NCBI RefSeq assembly: GCF_028330525.1
Contig: NZ_JAQMSD010000056.1
Coordinates: forward strand, 1 to 32,883
From: Spirulina sp. CS-785/01
GTDB lineage: Bacteria; Cyanobacteriota; Cyanobacteriia; Cyanobacteriales; Spirulinaceae
Direction: 5' to 3'
DNA: 32,883 nt
In this document: piece after piece, positions 17,753 through 29,074 of the stretch
How positions within the stretch are numbered: position 1 is the stretch's first letter
Layout of the letters: each line of letters starts with the position of its first letter
Program-made: the position numbers and the translations under genes
The notes under the pieces: model-generated
Databases searched by the model: none
What the model saw: the letters and a program-made list of their open reading frames with translations, nothing else
What the model was told of the DNA's origin: nothing

Positions 17753-20071
17753 TTATCGCCAGCATGGATACCCCATATCATCTAATCTTTCGTCTCGTAC
17801 CCAATTAATTACTTTCAAATCATTCCACAACCATTGGTAAACCAGATTTGTTACAGGAAAAGTTCCTAACCAACCTTTTGTGAATGGAGTTTGATCAAAA
17901 GACCCAATCCTTGGATATACTGGATACATACGATAAATAAGATTTAACTTAGAATTTTGTATTATTCCATTAAAACGAGAATCTTGAATATCAAGAGGAG
18001 TATCACCAAGTTTAAAATCTACATAGCTTTGACGATCACTAGGTAAAGGAACCCAAGTCCAACTAAAATGAATAGCATCTGAACGATGCTTAGGTAAAAC
18101 TACTGTGCCGACTAATCGAGCAGGTAAAATACTAGCAAGCTGTAACTGAGGTAATAATGGAGAAAATAAATCATTGACTAAATTTTCATAATCATAAATA
18201 GCATTTTTATAAATATCTATTATGTACTCTAATAGGACTTGGGAAGAAGGATAGTTAGTTTTTCGGAAATTTTCAACAGCAGCAGGAAGTTTTAAATGAT
18301 TTTGTCCTTTTCTACGTAAATTGCTAACTTCCGTTTTTAATTGGTTTAAACAGTGTTGCTTCATTACTGAAAATTGAAACATATTTATTTGTGCTAATTT
18401 ATTTTCAATTTCATCCAAATATATGGGAGTTGTATAGTGAAGATAATATTGATAATATTCAGCAATTTTACGATTTGTTAAATATATAGCAATATACCAA
18501 GCTGGTTCTAAGGATAAGTAACCTGAAATTTGGGATAATCTACGTTCTTTTAATAATTCTGGTAAATTTTCAAGAAAAGCTGAAGAAGTATATTGCCAAG
18601 GGGCATGAAAGTTTTGTTTGATTGGATACATTTGTAAAAAATAATTCCAGTCATTGGAATAATCATCAGTATAATCATTATAATTATTTTCTAGGCTGTT
18701 TAAAATATTTTGAGGTAACTCAATCACAGATTCTTTTATATCGTGACCAAAATACCAGCCTGTTATAATATTCAAAGAATTTGGATCATCGTTTTGTATT
18801 GGCTCAAATGCAATAGAGCCGCTATTAGGTTCTTTGTGAGTTATCGCAATTCCTAGAACTGGTAAATCACCATTTTTTCTGATAGGCATTACTAAGGGGG
18901 CTAATTTACCTAATCCTTCATACCAAGATTGACTAGCTATCCAAACCAATTTCCCCCACTCTAATGCAGATAAGTGTAAATTGGGAGGAAAACTCCAATT
19001 TAATAAACCCTTCTGAAAAAGTTTATTAGCGCAAGTAGGCGATCTTTTCACAATTTTTCCAACTGTTAAAGTTACAGCCTCTATTAAATTAGTCTGTGTT
19101 GACTCAACTAACTTACTTTGAAAAAATTCTCGTACTAATTCATGAAGTCTATAAGTTTGATTTCCTTCATGCTGAAGTAAATGAAAATCCAGTAAAAAAT
19201 CATCTCTTATATCTTTTAGTTTTTGTCTGTTTCGTTCTGGAAAGCATTGTTCAACGATGTGCCAAGAAATAGGCACTAAATCAAAAATACATAATATATA
19301 ACTTAATTCTTGAGCGTCAGAGCTTAATTCCTTCCAGCTTAGTTCAAAAGCTGCCGCTACTCCTTCTTGTGCTGTTATATCTAATGCCCATTTGTGTTTT
19401 TTAAGAGCTTTTTGGGTTAATCCTTGCTCTCGTAACTGTTGTAATACTTCTGCAAGGGATAAATCAGGTTTGTGACTTAGATAACGTCCTACTAATTCTA
19501 ATCCTAAAGGGAGATAACCTAGTTTTTGACAGAGTTCGTGCGCAATATTTAGTTCTTCTGGCAAAAAAATTTTATTAATTAATGACTCTAATAAATTAAT
19601 TGCTGCTTTAGATTTGAGGACTTCTAGCTCTAGTCGTTGAACAGATGTTAATAATTGCAAGCGTGTCGTTATTAAAACCCAAAATTTGGAATTCTGAGGT
19701 GGTAAATAGGGTTTAATTACTTCGTAATAATTGACATCATCTAAAATTACTAAAGCATTACCTTGATGCCAATGTTGCCAACACCATTTAACTGCTTTTT
19801 TCTTTTCTTTTACGTTTTCTTGTTCGTTAGTTTTTGGAGGTTTTAAATCCAAGTAAATCTCTGCAAATTCAACAATCTGTTGGGCTATATCTTCATCTCG
19901 TCCTCTTATCCAACAAATGCCACTTGGATAATGTTCCTGATAGGTAGCAGCATATTGAATAGCAAGTTCAGTTTTTCCTACTCCACCCATCCCCGTTATC
20001 GCAGTAATGGCAATGCGCTGGTTTTGCTGTAAAAGTTCGTGTAGGGTTGCTAGTTCAGCATCCCGTCCCAC
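17753..20071 (-). CDS. NB-ARC (STAND) ATPase with unrecognised C-terminal domain
   Basis: This is a STAND-class switch protein, 772 aa from a GTG start at 20071. It begins with the GRDAEL entry motif, followed by P-loop GMGGVGKT (27-34), Walker B ALVILDD (106-112), sensor 1 ITTR (134-137) and a GLPL-like LGYLPLGLELVG (about 187-198). A winged-helix region follows. From about 330 to 772 the sequence is rich in Tyr, Trp and Asn, without TPR, WD40 or LRR periodicity, and I do not recognise it; by analogy it is the sensor. The frame stays open upstream of the GTG for 24 codons up to a TGA, beyond which lies the hydrolase gene in the same frame. GGAG lies 11 nt before the GTG, so separate translation is possible. 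The gene is AT-richer than its left neighbours. Antiphage or other defence role is inference from STAND families. Confidence 0.85.
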   Translation of the reverse strand: MGRDAELATLHELLQQNQRIAITAITGMGGVGKTELAIQYAATYQEHYPSGICWIRGRDEDIAQQIVEFAEIYLDLKPPKTNEQENVKEKKKAVKWCWQHWHQGNALVILDDVNYYEVIKPYLPPQNSKFWVLITTRLQLLTSVQRLELEVLKSKAAINLLESLINKIFLPEELNIAHELCQKLGYLPLGLELVGRYLSHKPDLSLAEVLQQLREQGLTQKALKKHKWALDITAQEGVAAAFELSWKELSSDAQELSYILCIFDLVPISWHIVEQCFPERNRQKLKDIRDDFLLDFHLLQHEGNQTYRLHELVREFFQSKLVESTQTNLIEAVTLTVGKIVKRSPTCANKLFQKGLLNWSFPPNLHLSALEWGKLVWIASQSWYEGLGKLAPLVMPIRKNGDLPVLGIAITHKEPNSGSIAFEPIQNDDPNSLNIITGWYFGHDIKESVIELPQNILNSLENNYNDYTDDYSNDWNYFLQMYPIKQNFHAPWQYTSSAFLENLPELLKERRLSQISGYLSLEPAWYIAIYLTNRKIAEYYQYYLHYTTPIYLDEIENKLAQINMFQFSVMKQHCLNQLKTEVSNLRRKGQNHLKLPAAVENFRKTNYPSSQVLLEYIIDIYKNAIYDYENLVNDLFSPLLPQLQLASILPARLVGTVVLPKHRSDAIHFSWTWVPLPSDRQSYVDFKLGDTPLDIQDSRFNGIIQNSKLNLIYRMYPVYPRIGSFDQTPFTKGWLGTFPVTNLVYQWLWNDLKVINWVRDERLDDMGYPCWR

Positions 20072-20146
20072 AAAGTTTGTCGCTCCACTGAAGGGCAGAT
20101 TGTGCGGATATTGTTTAACCGGCTCCGATTCCGGCGAGTTCAGTCA
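20072..20146 (-). other. In-frame TGA and linker joining hydrolase and NB-ARC frames
   Basis: The TGA at 20144-20146 ends the hydrolase frame. The next 24 codons (start LNSPESEPVKQYPHN, end FSGATNF) lead without any other stop or frame change into VGRDAEL of the NB-ARC protein. FSGATNFVGRDAEL is a natural entry to an NB-ARC domain, so the stretch is real coding sequence from an uninterrupted ancestor or is still translated. The codon context is TTT TGA CTG. Confidence 0.85.
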
Positions 20147-21031
20147 AAAAGTGTTATGCTGCTCTTTAATGTTGATATCTCTACCAGCTTGATTAACTAT
20201 TGTATTAAGATAAGTAGTTTTGTCTTTAGATTCCTTCAGTTTTGGCAATGATTGTAAAGAACTTGATGCTAATTGTTCTATAATAAATCGTTTTGTTCTT
20301 CTATACAAATTGCTCTGTTTGGACTGTGGACGACAAATTGAATTATGGTCTTCATCCATGGGAATGGGAATAACTCCTGGGATTCCCGGATCAACACTTG
20401 TTTCATTCACGACTAAAATTCCCTTTGTCTTGCGTTTTTCGCAATAGACCTCGATAGGAATTTGCTTTAAAAAGTCGTGGTTGCGATAAACTTGGTTTAA
20501 CTCCCGTAAACGAGGATCATGAGCTTTTAGTTCCTCAACGCTGACTGAGGCTTGCAAAATTGCCCCCATATAGTTTACCCAATTTGCGAGGTCTGAACCA
20601 GAGTGAGGAGTTGATAAATAGATAATGCCTTTAGTTTGTTCCGCGATTGCTTTCCAACGAGAATTTCCAAAATCCCAAGCATGACGCAGCATCTGTTTAA
20701 CAAGTAAACCTCCCATACTATGAGTTATAAAGAAAATGGGGCGTTTCCCCACATCAATATCTAAGCAAGCCAGAACATCGGTTGCGCGATCTACCAATGG
20801 CATCGTCTCACCTTTCCAATGAAAAGGTTCAATCGCATAATCGAGCGTCCAAACCCTTAAATTTGGTAAATCCTCACCTAACCAAGTTGGCCAAAAATCA
20901 TAATCATCGCGTTTTCCTGTAGGATGCCATGCTCCTCGTGCATCTCCACCAAGTCCATGAACAAAAATGATATCTCCTTCATAGTTGGTATTATCACGAT
21001 TGGATATGGTAATGAGTTGGGTATTGGACAC
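20144..21031 (-). CDS. Alpha/beta hydrolase effector (SERAC1/DUF676-like), N-terminal half of a split STAND gene
   Basis: This 295-aa serine hydrolase or lipase-like protein has an oxyanion region IIFVHGLGGDARGAW, nucleophile elbow THSMGGLL and a catalytic His in DEDHNSIC. The C-terminus NQAGRDINIKEQHNTF is the type of linker commonly found between an effector domain and an NB-ARC module, and no normal domain end follows it. The start is GTG with GAGG 8 nt upstream; no in-frame ATG exists before the upstream stop. With the downstream frame it would form a protein of about 1,090 aa: hydrolase effector, NB-ARC switch, C-terminal sensor. It lies 80 bp behind the replication gene on the same strand. 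The substrate (lipid or other ester) is unknown. Confidence 0.85.
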   Translation of the reverse strand: MSNTQLITISNRDNTNYEGDIIFVHGLGGDARGAWHPTGKRDDYDFWPTWLGEDLPNLRVWTLDYAIEPFHWKGETMPLVDRATDVLACLDIDVGKRPIFFITHSMGGLLVKQMLRHAWDFGNSRWKAIAEQTKGIIYLSTPHSGSDLANWVNYMGAILQASVSVEELKAHDPRLRELNQVYRNHDFLKQIPIEVYCEKRKTKGILVVNETSVDPGIPGVIPIPMDEDHNSICRPQSKQSNLYRRTKRFIIEQLASSSLQSLPKLKESKDKTTYLNTIVNQAGRDINIKEQHNTF

Positions 21032-21111: not shown

Positions 21112-24100
21112 TTAAACAAATAAATCCAATTGCTGATACTTACTATTGGCTAAAAATGCCCAAGAATTGTCTAGTGAGAGACTATCCCTACTCTCCTCTA
21201 AATTGTAATCGTAGTTCCCGGCTTGGGCCAACCAATGGGCAAAAACGGCCTGTCTTTGGTCTTGGGGGGGGTCGATTTTATAGACTCGCACTCGCTTAGT
21301 CCGACTGACGCGACGACGGCCTGGGATGCGCTTTCCTTCGCATTTGATACAATCGACCCCGTAGCCGATTTTTTCGAGGAAACGACGGATAATTAAAACA
21401 GGACTGGAATTTTTGGCCAGTTTAATTCCCGTAGCTGTTTTAACGAAATTACGGTTTTCTAGGGCAATTTTTTGTAAGTTTTTGAGGTCAATGTCTGTAT
21501 TGCGTAACTCTCGTTCCGGGTGTTGAATTAATACAGAAATGCCTAATTTTTCCATAATGCCAATGATGGCCCCCAGTTGGGATCGGTTGAAGTCGGGGAG
21601 GAAAATGTCCCCTTCTCCTTGCTGGAGGAGTTGTTGCGCGATCGCAGCATCCCTCTCTGCTAAATACCCCCGGCCCACCGTCAAAAAGTAATGTAACCGC
21701 AACTGGGAGTACCACCCCTTATCATCCTGCATCACCAACTCCGGTGTCACCGTCAACCCATAGCGACGCTGTAAGTCAGACTTGCGTAACTGTCTGCGTT
21801 CCTTGGCCGTTTTCACCAGTTGCTTTTTCAACCGCAAATAGTCCGACTCACTGAGATCAGGGGAATCGGCGATCGCCTGACAATCTTCTTGATAGTTGCG
21901 ATCGCGCACTTGCACAATCATCTCCCCCAAATCCGGCGATCCCTCCTCAGTCGGGGTTTCCGGTTTTGGCAACTCAGCCACCGGGGCCACCTCCCGCAAC
22001 AAATGCCCCTCCCCTCGCAACGCGGCCAACAACGTCTCCCGATAATTCAACATAGAGGCATTGAGACGTACCGCAAACTTCGCCCACCCCAGCAAAGATT
22101 CCGCCTGAAAGCCCGTTTCTAGGTCATCTAACGCCATAAAATCACTCTGTTGGAGTAATTTGATATTCAGTTGGGTTAAACGCTGGCCAGAGGCTAATAA
22201 CGCGGGAATGGAAGTCGAACCATTGCCCACCTGATTAAAGCCAAAATTGGCCACCCAGAGATAACGGGGGATATTCTCCCGAATGCGTCCCATAGACTGT
22301 CTCACAGAATTTTCCGCCTGGACTCCCTGCGCGATCGCCCAAACCGAAGTAAAATGTCCCCGAATGTCCAGACTCACCCCCGTCTCAATACAAGGACTCG
22401 CCAAAACAACCTCATAATCCCCTAAAATTGCATTCAAATTCACCATACACCCATACGCCGGATGAGTGGGATCAGCCAGCGACTCCGAATCCAAACGCAA
22501 CACCCTTTTATCGGGGAATTGTTCCCGCAAATACGCCTCCAAATTGCGCGTCCCCCACTGACTACGGGTTTTTTGTGCCGAGAGACAGACAAACGGTTTC
22601 CCTCCCTCCCGAATATGTTGCGCTAAATCTTCCACCAAGCGATCGGGGGTTGTATCCGGATAATGATACAATCGCCAAGCCTCATCAGGACTAGGTTTCC
22701 AGTCGTTGTGGATAATATAAGGGTGTTGGGGAATCCCCCCTAGAGAGGTTAAATAATCTAAAGACGTATCACTGAGATCAGCATCGGACACATACACTTG
22801 TCCCCCTCCCCCCAAAACATTCTGCATCAGGGTTTTCAGGGATTTAAGAATCGCCACCCGATTTCCCCGACAGGTGGCAGAATTTAACCCATGCCATAAT
22901 ACCTGTTCCACTTCATCCATAATCACTACCCCATCTTCCCAGTTGCTGGCCTGAAACTTAGCTTGAGAATTGGGGTGGAGGGAGTCTATACAAAGGCCGT
23001 ATCCTTGCAATGCCCCATGGGGACTGTTGCGGACTTCCGTAATATACTGCAAGCCAAAGCGTTGACAAAGGGCTTCCACCAGCTTCACCCGATGCCCGAT
23101 GACTAACACCCATTGTCCCCGCTTCAAGGCATCTTGCACGACTTTTTCTAAGAGTTGCGTTTTGCCTGTCCCTTTGGGGGATTTAATGCCAATTAATCTG
23201 GCGGTTTCTGGGATGTCCAGTTGCGGGAGATAGCGACAGTTGAGTTGCGTTTGAATGGGGTGCGTGAGTTGGCTGAGGGTTTGTGCTTTCCAACTGTCGA
23301 GGGAGGGGGCGGTTTCGTAGGCATGATCAAAGGTTGCTTGGCCGTGGTTGGCGATGAGGTCATCGACTCCTTTCCCCCATTCTGCTTTCCACTGCACAAT
23401 CTGCACCTCGCATCCTTGCTGGGTGAGGAGATACCCGGTTTGGCGAATGGCGGCGTTTACGGCTTTAATGGTGTTGGGTTTGCGGTCTTGATCGAAGACA
23501 ATATAAATTTTGCGGCCTTGTTGACAGAGTTTGGCCAGTTGGGGGATAAGGCGAGATTTGCCGATGCGGTTGCCTTGGTTGTCTTTGGGGACGCGGTAGC
23601 CTCCATTTACTCCTGGAAGTGCGATCGCAGCATACCCGGCAGTTAATAAAGCCCCCGCTTTTTTCGCCCCCTCGGTGATACAAAGGGGAATATGGGGATG
23701 ATCCATCAGCCACTGCCAAAAGCCATTATCCGGTTGTTCGTCGGGCATTTCTGCGGGAGACTCAGCAGGGATATCCGGGAGGGGTTGCTGATAGCGTTGG
23801 GCAATTTTCCCCCAAATATGGGGGGGAACACGCAAGGCAAAGACTCCGGTTGCGGTTTTGGGGGGATGTTCGTATTTGATGGCCTTGCGACAATCGGCGG
23901 TTAACCGGGGCAGGTTGGGTTTAAAACATCCCCAAATATCTTCTTCTCCGGTGAGTACGTCAATGCCAGAACACCACCAACCCCCCTGTTCGATGTGTTC
24001 ATAGCGTTTCAACAGGGAGTCCCGCAGACGGCCATCATTCCGTCGGGGCAGTCCATTGGCATAGAATAGGTAATCGTAAGGGCGATCGCCTTCTAAAGTT

Positions 24101-24189
24101 GTGACGTTTAACTGGGTGAGTTGCATATCCACACAACTCGCCCCCCATTCTTGAAGATAATGCACGGCAGTTTCGCTGATTCGTTCCAA
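21112..24189 (-). CDS. CyRepA1-like plasmid replication protein (DUF3854 plus helicase-like ATPase)
   Basis: This 1,025-aa protein is recognised as the cyanobacterial plasmid replication family CyRepA1. The N-terminal half has the DUF3854/Toprim-like elements WWCSGIDVLTG, CITEGAKKAGALL (acidic Glu at about 173), IYIVFDQDRK (233-237) and GKGVDDLI, suggesting primase-like chemistry. The second half has a Walker A SPKGTGKT (337-344), a Walker B GVVIMDEVEQVLWHGL and helicase-like motifs LASPCIETGVSLDIRG and RQSMGRIRENIPRYLW. The C-terminus is basic. The likely start is TTG at 24189, because the family-conserved LQEWG region lies before the first ATG (codon 22). It is a hallmark of plasmids or plasmid-derived islands, here beside chromosomal genes. 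It seems intact, with no frame breaks. Confidence 0.85.
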   Translation of the reverse strand: MERISETAVHYLQEWGASCVDMQLTQLNVTTLEGDRPYDYLFYANGLPRRNDGRLRDSLLKRYEHIEQGGWWCSGIDVLTGEEDIWGCFKPNLPRLTADCRKAIKYEHPPKTATGVFALRVPPHIWGKIAQRYQQPLPDIPAESPAEMPDEQPDNGFWQWLMDHPHIPLCITEGAKKAGALLTAGYAAIALPGVNGGYRVPKDNQGNRIGKSRLIPQLAKLCQQGRKIYIVFDQDRKPNTIKAVNAAIRQTGYLLTQQGCEVQIVQWKAEWGKGVDDLIANHGQATFDHAYETAPSLDSWKAQTLSQLTHPIQTQLNCRYLPQLDIPETARLIGIKSPKGTGKTQLLEKVVQDALKRGQWVLVIGHRVKLVEALCQRFGLQYITEVRNSPHGALQGYGLCIDSLHPNSQAKFQASNWEDGVVIMDEVEQVLWHGLNSATCRGNRVAILKSLKTLMQNVLGGGGQVYVSDADLSDTSLDYLTSLGGIPQHPYIIHNDWKPSPDEAWRLYHYPDTTPDRLVEDLAQHIREGGKPFVCLSAQKTRSQWGTRNLEAYLREQFPDKRVLRLDSESLADPTHPAYGCMVNLNAILGDYEVVLASPCIETGVSLDIRGHFTSVWAIAQGVQAENSVRQSMGRIRENIPRYLWVANFGFNQVGNGSTSIPALLASGQRLTQLNIKLLQQSDFMALDDLETGFQAESLLGWAKFAVRLNASMLNYRETLLAALRGEGHLLREVAPVAELPKPETPTEEGSPDLGEMIVQVRDRNYQEDCQAIADSPDLSESDYLRLKKQLVKTAKERRQLRKSDLQRRYGLTVTPELVMQDDKGWYSQLRLHYFLTVGRGYLAERDAAIAQQLLQQGEGDIFLPDFNRSQLGAIIGIMEKLGISVLIQHPERELRNTDIDLKNLQKIALENRNFVKTATGIKLAKNSSPVLIIRRFLEKIGYGVDCIKCEGKRIPGRRRVSRTKRVRVYKIDPPQDQRQAVFAHWLAQAGNYDYNLEESRDSLSLDNSWAFLANSKYQQLDLFV

Positions 24190-24492: not shown

Positions 24493-24810
24493 ATGAATCA
24501 GAATCTTAACTCCCAAATAATTGATCAAAAGACTGTCCTCTCCACCCTTAAAAACCATTCAGAAGACCTTCAAAACTTAGGCGTTAAATCTCTCTCCCTA
24601 TTTGGTTCAACCGCCCGGAATGAAGCCACCCCAGACAGCGATCTCGACTTCCTTGTCGAATTTAACGCCGAACTAACCTTTAAGCGTTACATGAAGCTAA
24701 AATTCTTCCTTGAAGACCTATTTAACAAAAATGTTGATCTCGTTATCAAAACCGACCTAAAACCCCAAATCAGGGAAAGCGTTATCAAGGAATCCATCTA
24801 TGTCACGTAA
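24493..24810 (+). CDS. mntA: MntA-type nucleotidyltransferase antitoxin
   Basis: This 105-aa minimal nucleotidyltransferase has the motif GSx10DxD exactly: Gly38-Ser39, ten residues, Asp50-Leu-Asp52 (LFGSTAR, then SDLDFLVEF). In MNT/HEPN systems this protein AMPylates the HEPN toxin and neutralises it. It overlaps the next gene by 11 bp, as is common for translationally coupled antitoxin-toxin pairs. It is located beside a plasmid-type replication gene, which suits a maintenance or defence role. Confidence 0.92.
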   Translation: MNQNLNSQIIDQKTVLSTLKNHSEDLQNLGVKSLSLFGSTARNEATPDSDLDFLVEFNAELTFKRYMKLKFFLEDLFNKNVDLVIKTDLKPQIRESVIKESIYVT

Positions 24811-25150
24811 CCTTAGTCTCTATCTTAATGATATAATTAACAGTATTGATAAGATTCAAAACTATACCACTAACCTGACCTATGACCAATTATGTGAAGA
24901 TGACAAAACCCTCGATGCGGTTATTCATAACTTGCTTATCATCGGTGAAGCGACCAAGCAAATTCCCAATTCAATTCGGCTGAAATATCCGCAAATCGAA
25001 TGGAAGCAAATCGCAGGTTTAAGAGATATTATTGCTCATACCTATTTTTCCATTAACTCAAAAATCGTCTGGGATATCATTCAAACCGAACTTCATCCCC
25101 TAAGAAACTGTGTAAACATTATCCTCCAAAACGAAAATTCAGACAAGTAG
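24800..25150 (+). CDS. hepT: HepT-type HEPN ribonuclease toxin (DUF86)
   Basis: This 116-aa all-helical HEPN protein has the catalytic/modified motif Rx4HxY: Arg75, His80, Tyr82 in RDIIAHTYF. The upstream VIHNLLIIGEATKQIPNSIR is typical of the DUF86 family. In characterised systems it acts as an RNase and is blocked by AMPylation of the Tyr by MntA. All key residues are present, so the pair looks functional. The 3' end overlaps the convergent small gene at 25139-25345 by 12 bp. Confidence 0.92.
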   Translation: MSRNLSLYLNDIINSIDKIQNYTTNLTYDQLCEDDKTLDAVIHNLLIIGEATKQIPNSIRLKYPQIEWKQIAGLRDIIAHTYFSINSKIVWDIIQTELHPLRNCVNIILQNENSDK

Positions 25151-26435: not shown

Positions 26436-28373
26436 ATGTCTCTGATTATCGGCTTTGTTACCAGTTTTATTCTTCCTACAATTGGGAGTATATTGCAGTT
26501 AATTATTCCGGTTGCTGCCTCAGTTTTAGTTTTTTCTTTCTCTAAAATTCCTCAAATTCCTCGTTATATTAAATTTTTACGATTATTGTATGAGGATACT
26601 GATCCCAACTCTAAAGCCCGTCAAATGATAACTTTAGCATTACTCATACTGGGCAGTTTATTAACCTTTTTAACTTATTCCTTTATTCCAGGGACAGGAA
26701 TTCCTATCTTGGGAACAACGATGAACGCTATTGCGGCTATGCTGGCTATTGTTGTTCTCCTAGTTAGTTTTAATTTTATTTTTCATGTAAACGAAGATTA
26801 CTACTTACAAAAATTGAGTCAAACCCATCCCGAAGAAATGAAGAACTTATTGCAAGACATTACTGCCTTAGCGAAAATATTCGGAAAATCATGGAAAAAA
26901 TTAACGAATCTGTTAGAACAGTTACTTCCAAAATTAGAGGAACAAATTCTGAAAAATCCAGAAGCCGCCAATACACTGCAAAACTATATTGATGACAAAA
27001 TTAATGGGCTTTTACTCTATTTAGGCACACAAGAGTTACAACCCATCACCAAAGATGAATTTCAACGGGAACAGTTAAAACAACAAATTACAGGAGGTTT
27101 ACCGGCTGCCGCTAAATTTGGGGGTTCTGTTGCAGAAGGATTAACCGCAGGGGGTTTAACCACTACTGGAACAGCCGCTTTAGCCTCTAGTACCTTTGTT
27201 CAAGCGGGGTTTTGGACTTCAGTTCAAGGGGCTTTAGGGTTATCAGGCGGTATTGCAGTAGGGGCTTCTGCTTATGCCTTACTCACCATTGTAGCTCCCG
27301 TCGGACTTGGCACACTGGCAACTGTAGGTGTGACTCGTGGGGTCTTTCAATGGAGAAACCGTAAAGAGCGTAAGCAAATGAGTCAGTTTGTAACAGATGT
27401 TTTAATGGCAGCTTTACCGATGGTCTGGGTTGATGGAGAGTTTTCCCAAGAAGAACGAGATGTACTGCACAAAATGTTAATGAATCCCGCTATTCTTGAA
27501 GAAGATCGGAAACGGGTTTATGGGGTTATAGAAGAACAGCGTAGTTTCGATCAGGTTTTAGCCACTGGATTGTTGGTCGATGATGAACATCGCAAAAAAC
27601 ACGATCAGCCCAGTGTCAAAGAGAAGATGAAACATCGACTTTTGTTATGTATCGCTTGGGAGTTGGCGAAAGCCGATGGCAAGATAGATGTGGAAGAAAT
27701 TCAACTCCATAATCGCATGGCTCAGGTGTTACCGACCATTGAACCAGAAGCGGTTCAGGAAATTCGCCGGGTCGTCAGTTGTGAGTCTGGAGTCAATTTC
27801 CAAGAACGGATTTCGGTTGTACAAGGGGATATCACTACTCAATCCGTTGATGCCATTGTGAATTCGGCGGATGAAACCTTACTGATCAAAAAACCGTTGA
27901 ATTGGCTGCCGTTTCAGCAAGACCGTCAAGAGGTTGATTGGGCAATTCACCAAGCAGCAGGTGCGGATTTACTCAAGGAGTGTAAACGACTTAAAGGTTG
28001 TTCAATAGGAGAAGCAAAAATGACTCCTAGTTTTAACTTATCTGCGTCTTACGTTGTTCATACAGTGAGTCCTATTTGGACCGAGGGAACATTACAAGAA
28101 GAAGAATTGTTAGCGCAATGTTATCAGAATAGCCTTAAACTGGCTCAAAAATTGGGCTTACGTACTGTGGCTTTTCCCTTGTTAGGAACAGGGATAGGAA
28201 GTTTCCCGTTGGAACAAGCAACACGGATTGCCATGACTGAGATCAAAAAATTTCTGAGTGTTAATTTTGAGGTGGAACAAGTAACACTGGTGTGTCGCAA
28301 TGAAGCAATTTATCAGTTCTGTGAACAAGTCTTGCAAGAACCTGTGATGATCGCGGCAGCTATTGAAGAATAG
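26436..28373 (+). CDS. Membrane protein with TerB-like and macro domains
   Basis: This 645-aa fusion has membrane segments at about residues 3-35, 64-83 and 92-117, then a helical region, then a Gly/Ala-rich hydrophobic stretch (about 220-303). A TerB-like helical domain (about 318-435) has the paired acidic motifs MVWVDGEFSQEE and LAKADGKIDVEE. A macro domain (about 458-635) has ISVVQGDIT, VDAIVNSADETLL, AIHQAAG, VVHTVSPIW and FPLLGTGIGSFP. Macro domains bind ADP-ribose or related nucleotides; TerB domains are linked to membrane-associated stress and defence systems. The macro loop differs from active hydrolases: the second Asn of the usual VNAAN is Asp, and the GGGV loop before AIHQAAG is replaced by an insertion ending QEVDW. 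It may bind without hydrolysing. GGAG lies 11 nt before the ATG. Confidence 0.85.
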   Translation: MSLIIGFVTSFILPTIGSILQLIIPVAASVLVFSFSKIPQIPRYIKFLRLLYEDTDPNSKARQMITLALLILGSLLTFLTYSFIPGTGIPILGTTMNAIAAMLAIVVLLVSFNFIFHVNEDYYLQKLSQTHPEEMKNLLQDITALAKIFGKSWKKLTNLLEQLLPKLEEQILKNPEAANTLQNYIDDKINGLLLYLGTQELQPITKDEFQREQLKQQITGGLPAAAKFGGSVAEGLTAGGLTTTGTAALASSTFVQAGFWTSVQGALGLSGGIAVGASAYALLTIVAPVGLGTLATVGVTRGVFQWRNRKERKQMSQFVTDVLMAALPMVWVDGEFSQEERDVLHKMLMNPAILEEDRKRVYGVIEEQRSFDQVLATGLLVDDEHRKKHDQPSVKEKMKHRLLLCIAWELAKADGKIDVEEIQLHNRMAQVLPTIEPEAVQEIRRVVSCESGVNFQERISVVQGDITTQSVDAIVNSADETLLIKKPLNWLPFQQDRQEVDWAIHQAAGADLLKECKRLKGCSIGEAKMTPSFNLSASYVVHTVSPIWTEGTLQEEELLAQCYQNSLKLAQKLGLRTVAFPLLGTGIGSFPLEQATRIAMTEIKKFLSVNFEVEQVTLVCRNEAIYQFCEQVLQEPVMIAAAIEE

Positions 28374-28395: not shown

Positions 28396-28457
28396 CGCGA
28401 TTCCCTTACTGGGACGCTAGCCGAAGTCCAGAAACGCGATTCCCCTACGGGGACGCT
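28396..28457. repeat. Two copies of a 23-bp palindromic repeat
   Basis: CGCGATTCCCTTACTGGGAC plus GCT (28396-28418) and CGCGATTCCCCTACGGGGAC plus GCT (28435-28457) differ at two positions and lie 39 bp apart. The core CCCCTACGGGG is a short hairpin. A GCGATCGC octamer follows at about 28461. This is a dispersed cyanobacterial repeat type. Confidence 0.7.
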
Positions 28458-28630
28458 ACTGCGATCGCCTCAAAACCAGTCCCTTATCCAGGCCCTCCCT
28501 AGAAACGACCCCTCAGTTAACATCGGTCATGGAGAGTCATCCCGCCATAACGGAAGAAGCTCACAGAGGTTTCACTAGGGACTCACTAGGTTAAAAAACA
28601 GCGATCGCAAAGTTATAATTCGTTAAATAC

Positions 28631-28681
28631 TGTGGAAAACTCGGTCAAATCTGTGGAAAATGCTGAAGATGTTGTGGAAAA
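28631..28681 (+). promoter_or_regulatory. Three DnaA-box-like sites at exact 21-bp period
   Basis: TGTGGAAAA occurs at 28631-28639, 28652-28660 and 28673-28681, all in the same orientation with starts exactly 21 bp apart (two helical turns). The reverse complement TTTTCCACA matches the DnaA box reported for cyanobacteria. An AT-rich patch (AAAGTTATAATTCGTTAAAT) lies just to the left. This could be a replication origin element or a DnaA-controlled promoter for the next gene at 28772. Confidence 0.6.
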
Positions 28682-28771
28682 ACTCCCCCTAAAAACCCCA
28701 GTCGGGATATCCCCCATCGCCAAACCCTCCCCTCATTTGCCACAATAAAAACAAGGATTCAACAAGACTTG

Positions 28772-29074
28772 ATGAATAACTCCGTAAAATCGCTCTATCA
28801 ATGGTATCGTAATACCCTCCGTAACCCTCAGTATCGCTGGTGGGTCATCCTAGGAAGTCTCCTCTATCTGATCAGTCCCATTGATATCGCCCCCGACCTC
28901 ATCCCCCTGGCCGGCCAAGTAGATGATATTGTTCTCTTAACCCTCCTCCTCACCGAAGTCTCTCAAATGGTACTCGACTTCGCCCAACAAGGCCAAACCT
29001 CCGAAGTCAGCAAAGAAACCCAAGATCAGTCCGTCAAAACCGTCGATGTGGATGCAGTCCCCCTAGAGGAGTAA
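28772..29074 (+). CDS. YkvA-like DUF1232 membrane protein
   Basis: This 100-aa protein has the DUF1232 signature, with a hydrophobic helix at about 25-39 leading into ISPIDIAPDLIPLAGQVDD and a second hydrophobic stretch IVLLTLLLTEVSQMV. The C-terminal tail is polar and acidic. The function of the family is unknown; it is small and membrane-associated. The ATG at 28772 is preferred to the TTG just before it. It lies directly behind the DnaA-box-like cluster. Confidence 0.88.
   Translation: MNNSVKSLYQWYRNTLRNPQYRWWVILGSLLYLISPIDIAPDLIPLAGQVDDIVLLTLLLTEVSQMVLDFAQQGQTSEVSKETQDQSVKTVDVDAVPLEE

Follow-up and report, generated by a model that had tools for sequence, protein, structure and literature searches.

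A helically phased triplet of DnaA boxes in Spirulina sp. CS-785/01 as a possible extra-origin DnaA-binding array

The window analysed here, 32,883 nucleotides of Spirulina sp. CS-785/01, is the entire contig C34 of a 5.4 Mb genome assembly (G000) in 351 contigs. A motif search of both strands found three exact copies of TGTGGAAAA in the window and no others (Table 1). All three are on the plus strand and occupy the interval between two listed ORFs, the first of which ends at 28373 and the second of which begins at 28769. Read on the opposite strand the motif is TTTTCCACA, which matches the DnaA box published for cyanobacteria (excerpted text of PMC4674748), so that three exact copies of this box are present. 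A sequence-only reading of the window had described three DnaA-box-like motifs at an exact 21-bp period beside an AT-rich patch, and both descriptions were borne out, the patch directly adjoining the first box. The same reading had placed a switch of gene direction near the array; all listed ORFs to the right are indeed plus, but so are three of the four nearest ORFs to the left (24493, 24800 and 26436). The sigma-70-like site before the array, one match compared with a shuffle mean of 0.6, is near chance level.

Table 1. Features at and around the DnaA-box array (window coordinates)
Feature	Position	Strand	Remarks
DnaA box 1 (TGTGGAAAA; TTTTCCACA on the minus strand)	28631..28639	+	exact match
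DnaA box 2	28652..28660	+	exact match; 21 bp past box 1
DnaA box 3	28673..28681	+	exact match; 21 bp past box 2
Array, 51 bp	28631..28681	+	first spacer CTCGGTCAAATC, nearest to the class B arrays of three same-family genomes (3/12 differences)
AT-rich patch before the array	28590..28630	.	41 bases, 12 G or C
Sigma-70-like site	28591-28619		TTAAAA, 17 bp, TATAAT; consensus match only
TTTGCCACAATAA	28736..28748	+	immediately precedes the DUF1232 gene; looks like a promoter element, not a DnaA box
DUF1232 (PF06803) gene	28769..29074	+	87 bp past the array
Gene left of the array	26436..28373	+	TerB and macro domains

Other features of the window were recorded alongside the array. A large DUF3854 protein is encoded on the minus strand at 21112-24189; DUF3854 proteins include cyanobacterial plasmid replication initiators, and the part of the window around this gene may be an integrated plasmid. 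An NB-ARC ATPase gene adjoining an alpha/beta hydrolase gene in an AT-rich stretch (17753-21031) could represent a defence-type pair. At 24493-25150 a nucleotidyltransferase-domain gene overlaps a small gene that we take to be HEPN-like, likely forming an MNT/HEPN toxin-antitoxin pair. Two copies of a 24-base repeat, 92% alike and 39 bp apart, lie at 28396-28458 and resemble interspersed repeats of cyanobacteria.

Three or more copies of the 9-mer, with spacing ignored, appeared in 4 of 100 dinucleotide shuffles of the window. When the double 21-bp triplet was searched at up to two mismatches, it was present in 76/291 genomes of the order (34/121 genera) and the reversed-pattern control in 0/291; conservation of the triplet among relatives was one of the checks named by the sequence-only reading. 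The double 21-bp period is far beyond chance. In the genome itself the exact box occurs 70 times and the reversed 9-mer 49 times, and an exact double 21-bp period was present at two places only: the window array and C93:7507-7557 (L011), upstream of a DUF2811 gene. In a broader draw of genomes, exact triplets with gaps of 11-13 and 10-13 were detected in 29/83 genomes of the order, 10/58 from other orders of the class and 0/150 from other classes of the phylum, with one hit of the reversed control across the search. Among genomes of the window's own family, the contig examined in G052 bears an array too.

Direct box pairs were tabulated by distance at gaps of 1-30, with a triplet counting as two pairs and related genomes not thinned. 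Start to start, the 150 pairs listed fell at 11 bp (30), 12 bp (5), 20 bp (27), 21 bp (69), 22 bp (12) and other distances (7); that is, 143 lay at 11-12 bp (35) or 20-22 bp (108). This clustering indicates that box spacing is set by helical turns. The earlier proposal that the sites share one face of the helix accordingly holds for the phasing, which spans two turns and recurs in relatives, both in the order-wide triplet counts and in the spacings of direct pairs.

In a scan across named genomes of bacteria and archaea, at least 115 stretches contained the exact triplet, and all those listed were sorted by their neighbours. Among them, 94 were cyanobacterial by title and 21 were not or gave no such statement, including Thermoanaerobaculia, Ignavibacteria, a Pantoea plasmid and others. 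Comparison with reference proteins placed guaA and/or a cation-efflux (CDF) gene beside 56 of the arrays, DUF2811 beside 21, dnaA/dnaN beside 6 and none of these beside 32, the last set containing all 21 stretches without a cyanobacterial title. These counts are of stretches rather than independent lineages, since several are close relatives, and a neighbour may be missed where a stretch ends near the array. Arrays at guaA and/or the cation-efflux gene are referred to below as class B, and those at DUF2811 as class A.

Orientation relative to these neighbours was uniform among the stretches listed: the CDF gene lay to the right of the array on the minus strand in 39/39, guaA to the left on the plus strand in 23/23, and DUF2811 to the left on the minus strand in 21/21, with class A arrays 245-424 bp from the DUF2811 match. 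Class B arrays with guaA on the left therefore lie between the 3′ ends of convergent genes, which makes a promoter role unlikely there. In the window's family, the left neighbour of class B arrays was not guaA in the loci read, and CDF was on the right in L159-L164; the same-family genomes G105 and G088 had no B-type pair. The classes also differed in spacing once identical arrays had been merged: 44 of 68 distinct class B arrays in the wider set were spaced 21+20 and 20 were spaced 21+21, whereas 24 of 27 distinct class A arrays were spaced 21+21. After class A arrays come weaker sites, phased at 11 bp, and a 20-bp bin in which AT reaches 81%; next to class B arrays, neither side has a strongly AT-rich bin (0.52-0.67). 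Outside the boxes and the bases adjacent to them, hardly any column of the class B alignment exceeded 0.55 bits, although conservation of the boxes is partly built in because the loci were chosen by them. The bases flanking the boxes were conserved beyond the 9-mer (C after, C or T before). When additional weak boxes were sought between the strong ones, both classes scored positively at several offsets, an outcome to which fixed base preferences may contribute in part and which therefore carries little weight. Taken together, the order-wide triplets, the pair spacings and the two array classes constitute a box cluster outside the origin with conserved spacing, and conserved chromosomal neighbours were seen for both classes. 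The window copy is flanked instead by the DUF1232 and macro-domain genes.

How the window array relates to these classes was judged from its spacer and from the rest of the genome. The class A array is accounted for, being the C93 copy beside DUF2811. The best CDF match in the genome, at 69% identity, is on C130 with its right-hand neighbour gene retained, and no box at up to one mismatch was found in 3.9 kb of this locus. Three genomes of the same family (G071, G052 and G150) have class B arrays whose spacer differs from the first spacer of the window array at 3 of 12 positions; every other spacer compared differs from it at four or more. A cation-efflux locus lacking boxes, together with three nearest spacers that all belong to same-family class B arrays, makes displacement of a class B array the probable source of the window array. 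This assignment depends on a 12-base spacer, and the first spacer separates the classes weakly: with identical spacers merged and the C93 spacer set aside, leave-one-out classification was correct for 17/23 class A and 53/59 class B arrays, misplacing 6/23 and 6/59, and the weight score of the window spacer favoured class B by only 1.1 bits. The second spacing of the window array is 21, where the commonest class B form has 20, and neither flank is a class B flank; the TerB/macro-domain gene was a neighbour of none of the class A or B arrays examined. With a score of 1.1 bits, the window array may instead have arisen separately.

The sequence-only reading had also offered the array as a chromosomal origin, and the position of dnaA and dnaN was examined for this purpose. 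Whole-genome family searches placed neither gene next to the window array. The single dnaA, which encodes a protein with N-terminal, ATPase and C-terminal DNA-binding domains, is on contig C158, away from the array; the only box within 1.5 kb of it has one mismatch, and none is exact. The N-terminal domain of dnaN was not found in this assembly (completeness 99.99) and was present in the other 44 of the 45 genomes searched; its absence is probably an assembly gap.

An origin core was defined as an 11-bp DnaA-box pair plus an inverted box, and was found in 14 of 46 genomes searched. Twelve of these could be compared with dnaN, as G000 had no dnaN match and G176 was outside the dnaN search. In 9 of the 12, at most 2.8 kb separated the core from dnaN, and in 8 of those 9 the distance did not exceed 311 bp; the exceptions (G071, G088 and G163) all belong to the same family as the window genome. 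No such core is present in the window array. In the Spirulina genome the core occurs only at C18:3142-3178 (L012), between a gene that we read from its sequence as PHP-type and an alpha/beta hydrolase gene, the same setting as in G071 (L168). Given the proximity of the core to dnaN in most of the genomes compared and its presence on C18 here, the C18 site is a better origin candidate than the window array and the best one that this genome offers; like the site in G071, it seems to have been separated from dnaA and dnaN. The earlier reading had named a clear origin elsewhere, together with a lack of conserved spacing, as what would count against it; an origin elsewhere is indicated as a candidate, and the spacing proved to be conserved.

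Cumulative GC skew, also proposed as a check, rises across the window to approximately 28.5 kb and then falls, which is a local maximum and not the minimum expected at an origin. In the complete relative G071, 60 samples of 20 kb (1.2 of 5.2 Mb) revealed no structure beyond that of permuted samples in either GC skew (P = 0.77) or gene orientation (P = 0.73). GC skew therefore cannot decide the origin and was dropped as a test, and most cyanobacterial genomes are described as having irregular GC skew (excerpted text of PMC7198777).

An origin or alternative origin, past or present, in which a phased DnaA array opens the adjacent AT-rich stretch, nevertheless had to be weighed. Boxes phased at 21-22 bp occur beside the dnaN-linked origin core in L296, L297 and L303, phased 20-22-bp boxes at dnaN-linked origins tie the array module to DnaA, and the exact triplet accompanies dnaA/dnaN in the 6 of 115 stretches listed above. 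The weak 11-bp-phased sites and AT-rich bin that follow class A arrays point the same way, and the C93 copy looks more origin-like than the window array on account of these features in relatives. The lack of skew in G071 also resembles species reported to have several origins (excerpted text of PMC7198777). Against this, the window array lacks the core that is found on C18 here and near dnaN in 9/12 genomes, dnaA/dnaN are not nearby, and class B arrays have no strongly AT-rich bin on either side. A chromosomal origin at the window array is accordingly not supported, and we consider an origin function in the wider sense quite unlikely.

The main rival to an extra-origin role is control of the DUF1232 gene, with DnaA bound at the array strengthening an older single-site control. 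A promoter-like site stands directly before the array, a TTTGnCACAAT stretch just before the gene is common to several relatives, and a reversed box at up to one mismatch was found close upstream of the gene in 5/29 loci (the window included, two relatives exact), whereas 100 shuffles averaged 0.49 such loci and never exceeded 3. The window and G105 matches among these five are part of the TTTGnCACAAT stretch, which looks promoter-like; elsewhere the match is a separate GGTTwTCyACAC-like site. However, none of the 25 usable relatives (four loci were dropped because the motif could not be located) had two or more boxes at up to one mismatch in the 700 bp examined upstream, and in 9 relatives compared the window array had no alignable counterpart there. 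Elsewhere, among the stretches listed, arrays are found where genes converge or at 245-424 bp from a DUF2811 match, and the sigma-70-like match is near chance level. An operator of DUF1232 was disfavoured as the main role, given that the array was upstream in 0/25 relatives, and such control would be an unlikely explanation of the array. In relatives such as L064, L078, L054 and L063, a single reversed DnaA-box-like GGTTwTCyACAC precedes the TTTGnCACAAT or TTTGTCAATAT stretch upstream of DUF1232, and in those relatives the gene might be under DnaA-like control.

Plasmid iterons often have periods near 21 bp, as the array does, and plasmid-like genes at 17.7-25.2 kb, the DUF3854 gene among them, would be consistent with iterons that belong to an integrated element. 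A 4.4-kb Candidatus Pantoea plasmid (L187) carries several copies of TGTGGAAAA at a 21-bp period with the same spacer and has an iteron-like look. Yet the second and third 21-nt copies in the window share only 76% and 67% identity with the first, the DUF3854 gene is 4.4 kb away, arrays of relatives among the stretches listed stand at fixed neighbours such as guaA, and a search with the 451-base region at E 1e-5 gave no match to a plasmid record. Iterons were rejected on the incompletely conserved repeat unit and the lack of a plasmid match, and are highly improbable; the origin of a plasmid-like island suggested by the sequence-only reading is likewise unlikely. Binding of the phased array by a protein other than DnaA would account for the conserved bases next to the boxes in class B arrays, but the 9-mer is the published cyanobacterial DnaA box (excerpted text of PMC4674748) and identically phased boxes are found at dnaA/dnaN, leaving this decidedly unlikely. 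Chance or a coding heptad repeat is left with a negligible probability: a 21-bp period corresponds to seven codons, and a short reading frame runs uninterrupted across the array, but the reversed control gave 0/291 genomes, and 35 of the 56 class B arrays listed have a 21+20 spacing that breaks any frame. On this spacing a coding repeat was rejected, and the spacer can be taken as non-coding, as had been claimed.

A DnaA-titration or regulatory site, the remaining suggestion of the sequence-only reading, fits best; the boxes, their phasing and their recurrence support it, while binding and effect would follow by extrapolation. We give about an even chance to the triplet being a DnaA-binding array outside the origin that acts on DnaA rather than as an origin, its likeliest source being displacement of the guaA/cation-efflux array. 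The exact boxes, two-turn phasing, fixed places and orientation in relatives, a three-domain DnaA and an origin candidate elsewhere speak for it; that arrays are not universal, with the strict triplet in 29/83, 10/58 and 0/150 genomes, counts against it. DnaA molecules would bind the three same-facing boxes cooperatively, lined up on one face of the helix. By comparison, Escherichia coli DnaA prefers box pairs 2-3 bp apart, versus the 12-bp gap in the window array (excerpted text of PMC11317965), and binding of Cyanothece DnaA domain IV to origin boxes suggested cooperativity at a gap that also differs from 12 bp (excerpted text of PMC4674748). The array might then alter DnaA availability or nucleotide state, as do datA, DARS or titration clusters, and would neither fire as an origin nor chiefly regulate a neighbouring gene. 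Boxes that are kept while neighbours change, and sites between convergent genes elsewhere, are most simply explained by an array that acts on DnaA itself.

The size of any such effect may differ between lineages. Picosynechococcus sp. PCC 7117 carries arrays (an exact array in L202), and we take Synechococcus sp. PCC 7002 to be its close relative. In the latter, dnaA can be deleted without an effect on growth (excerpted text of PMC7198777). Arrays in one strain and tolerance of dnaA loss in the other suggest that some lineages may retain little of the effect or none. Indeed, several cyanobacterial species tolerate the loss of dnaA or lack it, several replicate without DnaA, and DnaA may act as a transcriptional regulator through boxes outside oriC (excerpted text of PMC7198777).

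Clusters of DnaA boxes outside the origin are a known kind of element; reports of them at these cyanobacterial loci were not found in listings of the open literature, which cover part of the field. Tentatively, we propose that cyanobacteria keep two old, positionally anchored extra-origin DnaA arrays, at guaA/cation efflux and at DUF2811, built on the same two-turn module as some origins. These could form a phylum-specific system for DnaA availability, or extra initiation sites, in chromosomes without strand bias. The window array, intact though uncoupled from its old neighbours, would then be able to work without them. The fact that several species do without dnaA gives such arrays their interest for the control of replication in cyanobacteria. 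With fixed phase, orientation and neighbours across families, they are defined DNA sites at which DnaA control of copy number can be tested, and lineages without DnaA control are predicted to lose them in time.

In Bacillus and Streptomyces, DnaA-box clusters outside oriC restrain or regulate DnaA, and to our knowledge no fixed two-turn triplet at conserved neighbours belongs to them. The double DnaA boxes of E. coli and the oriC boxes of Cyanothece 51142, which are 2 nt apart, share with the window array a strict spacing that matters for binding (excerpted texts of PMC11317965 and PMC4674748). However, these pairs are 11-12 bp from start to start and so resemble the 11-12-bp class, whereas the window array belongs to the 20-22-bp class. 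Cyanobacterial oriC next to dnaN has the same box and also phased 20-22-bp boxes, but differs in its 11-bp pair plus inverted box and in the proximity of dnaA/dnaN. The datA, DARS1 and DARS2 loci of E. coli have conserved boxes and variable spacers, with a core of three boxes in DARS1 and DARS2 (excerpted text of PMC4585315). In contrast to the cyanobacterial array, known from sequence and consisting of three direct repeats at a two-turn period, with class B copies between guaA and a cation-efflux gene, the E. coli loci belong to another phylum, use another box, and feature IHF/Fis sites and nucleotide exchange or hydrolysis. What the two have in common is a non-coding cluster of DnaA boxes outside the origin in which box sequence and spacing are conserved while the spacers vary.
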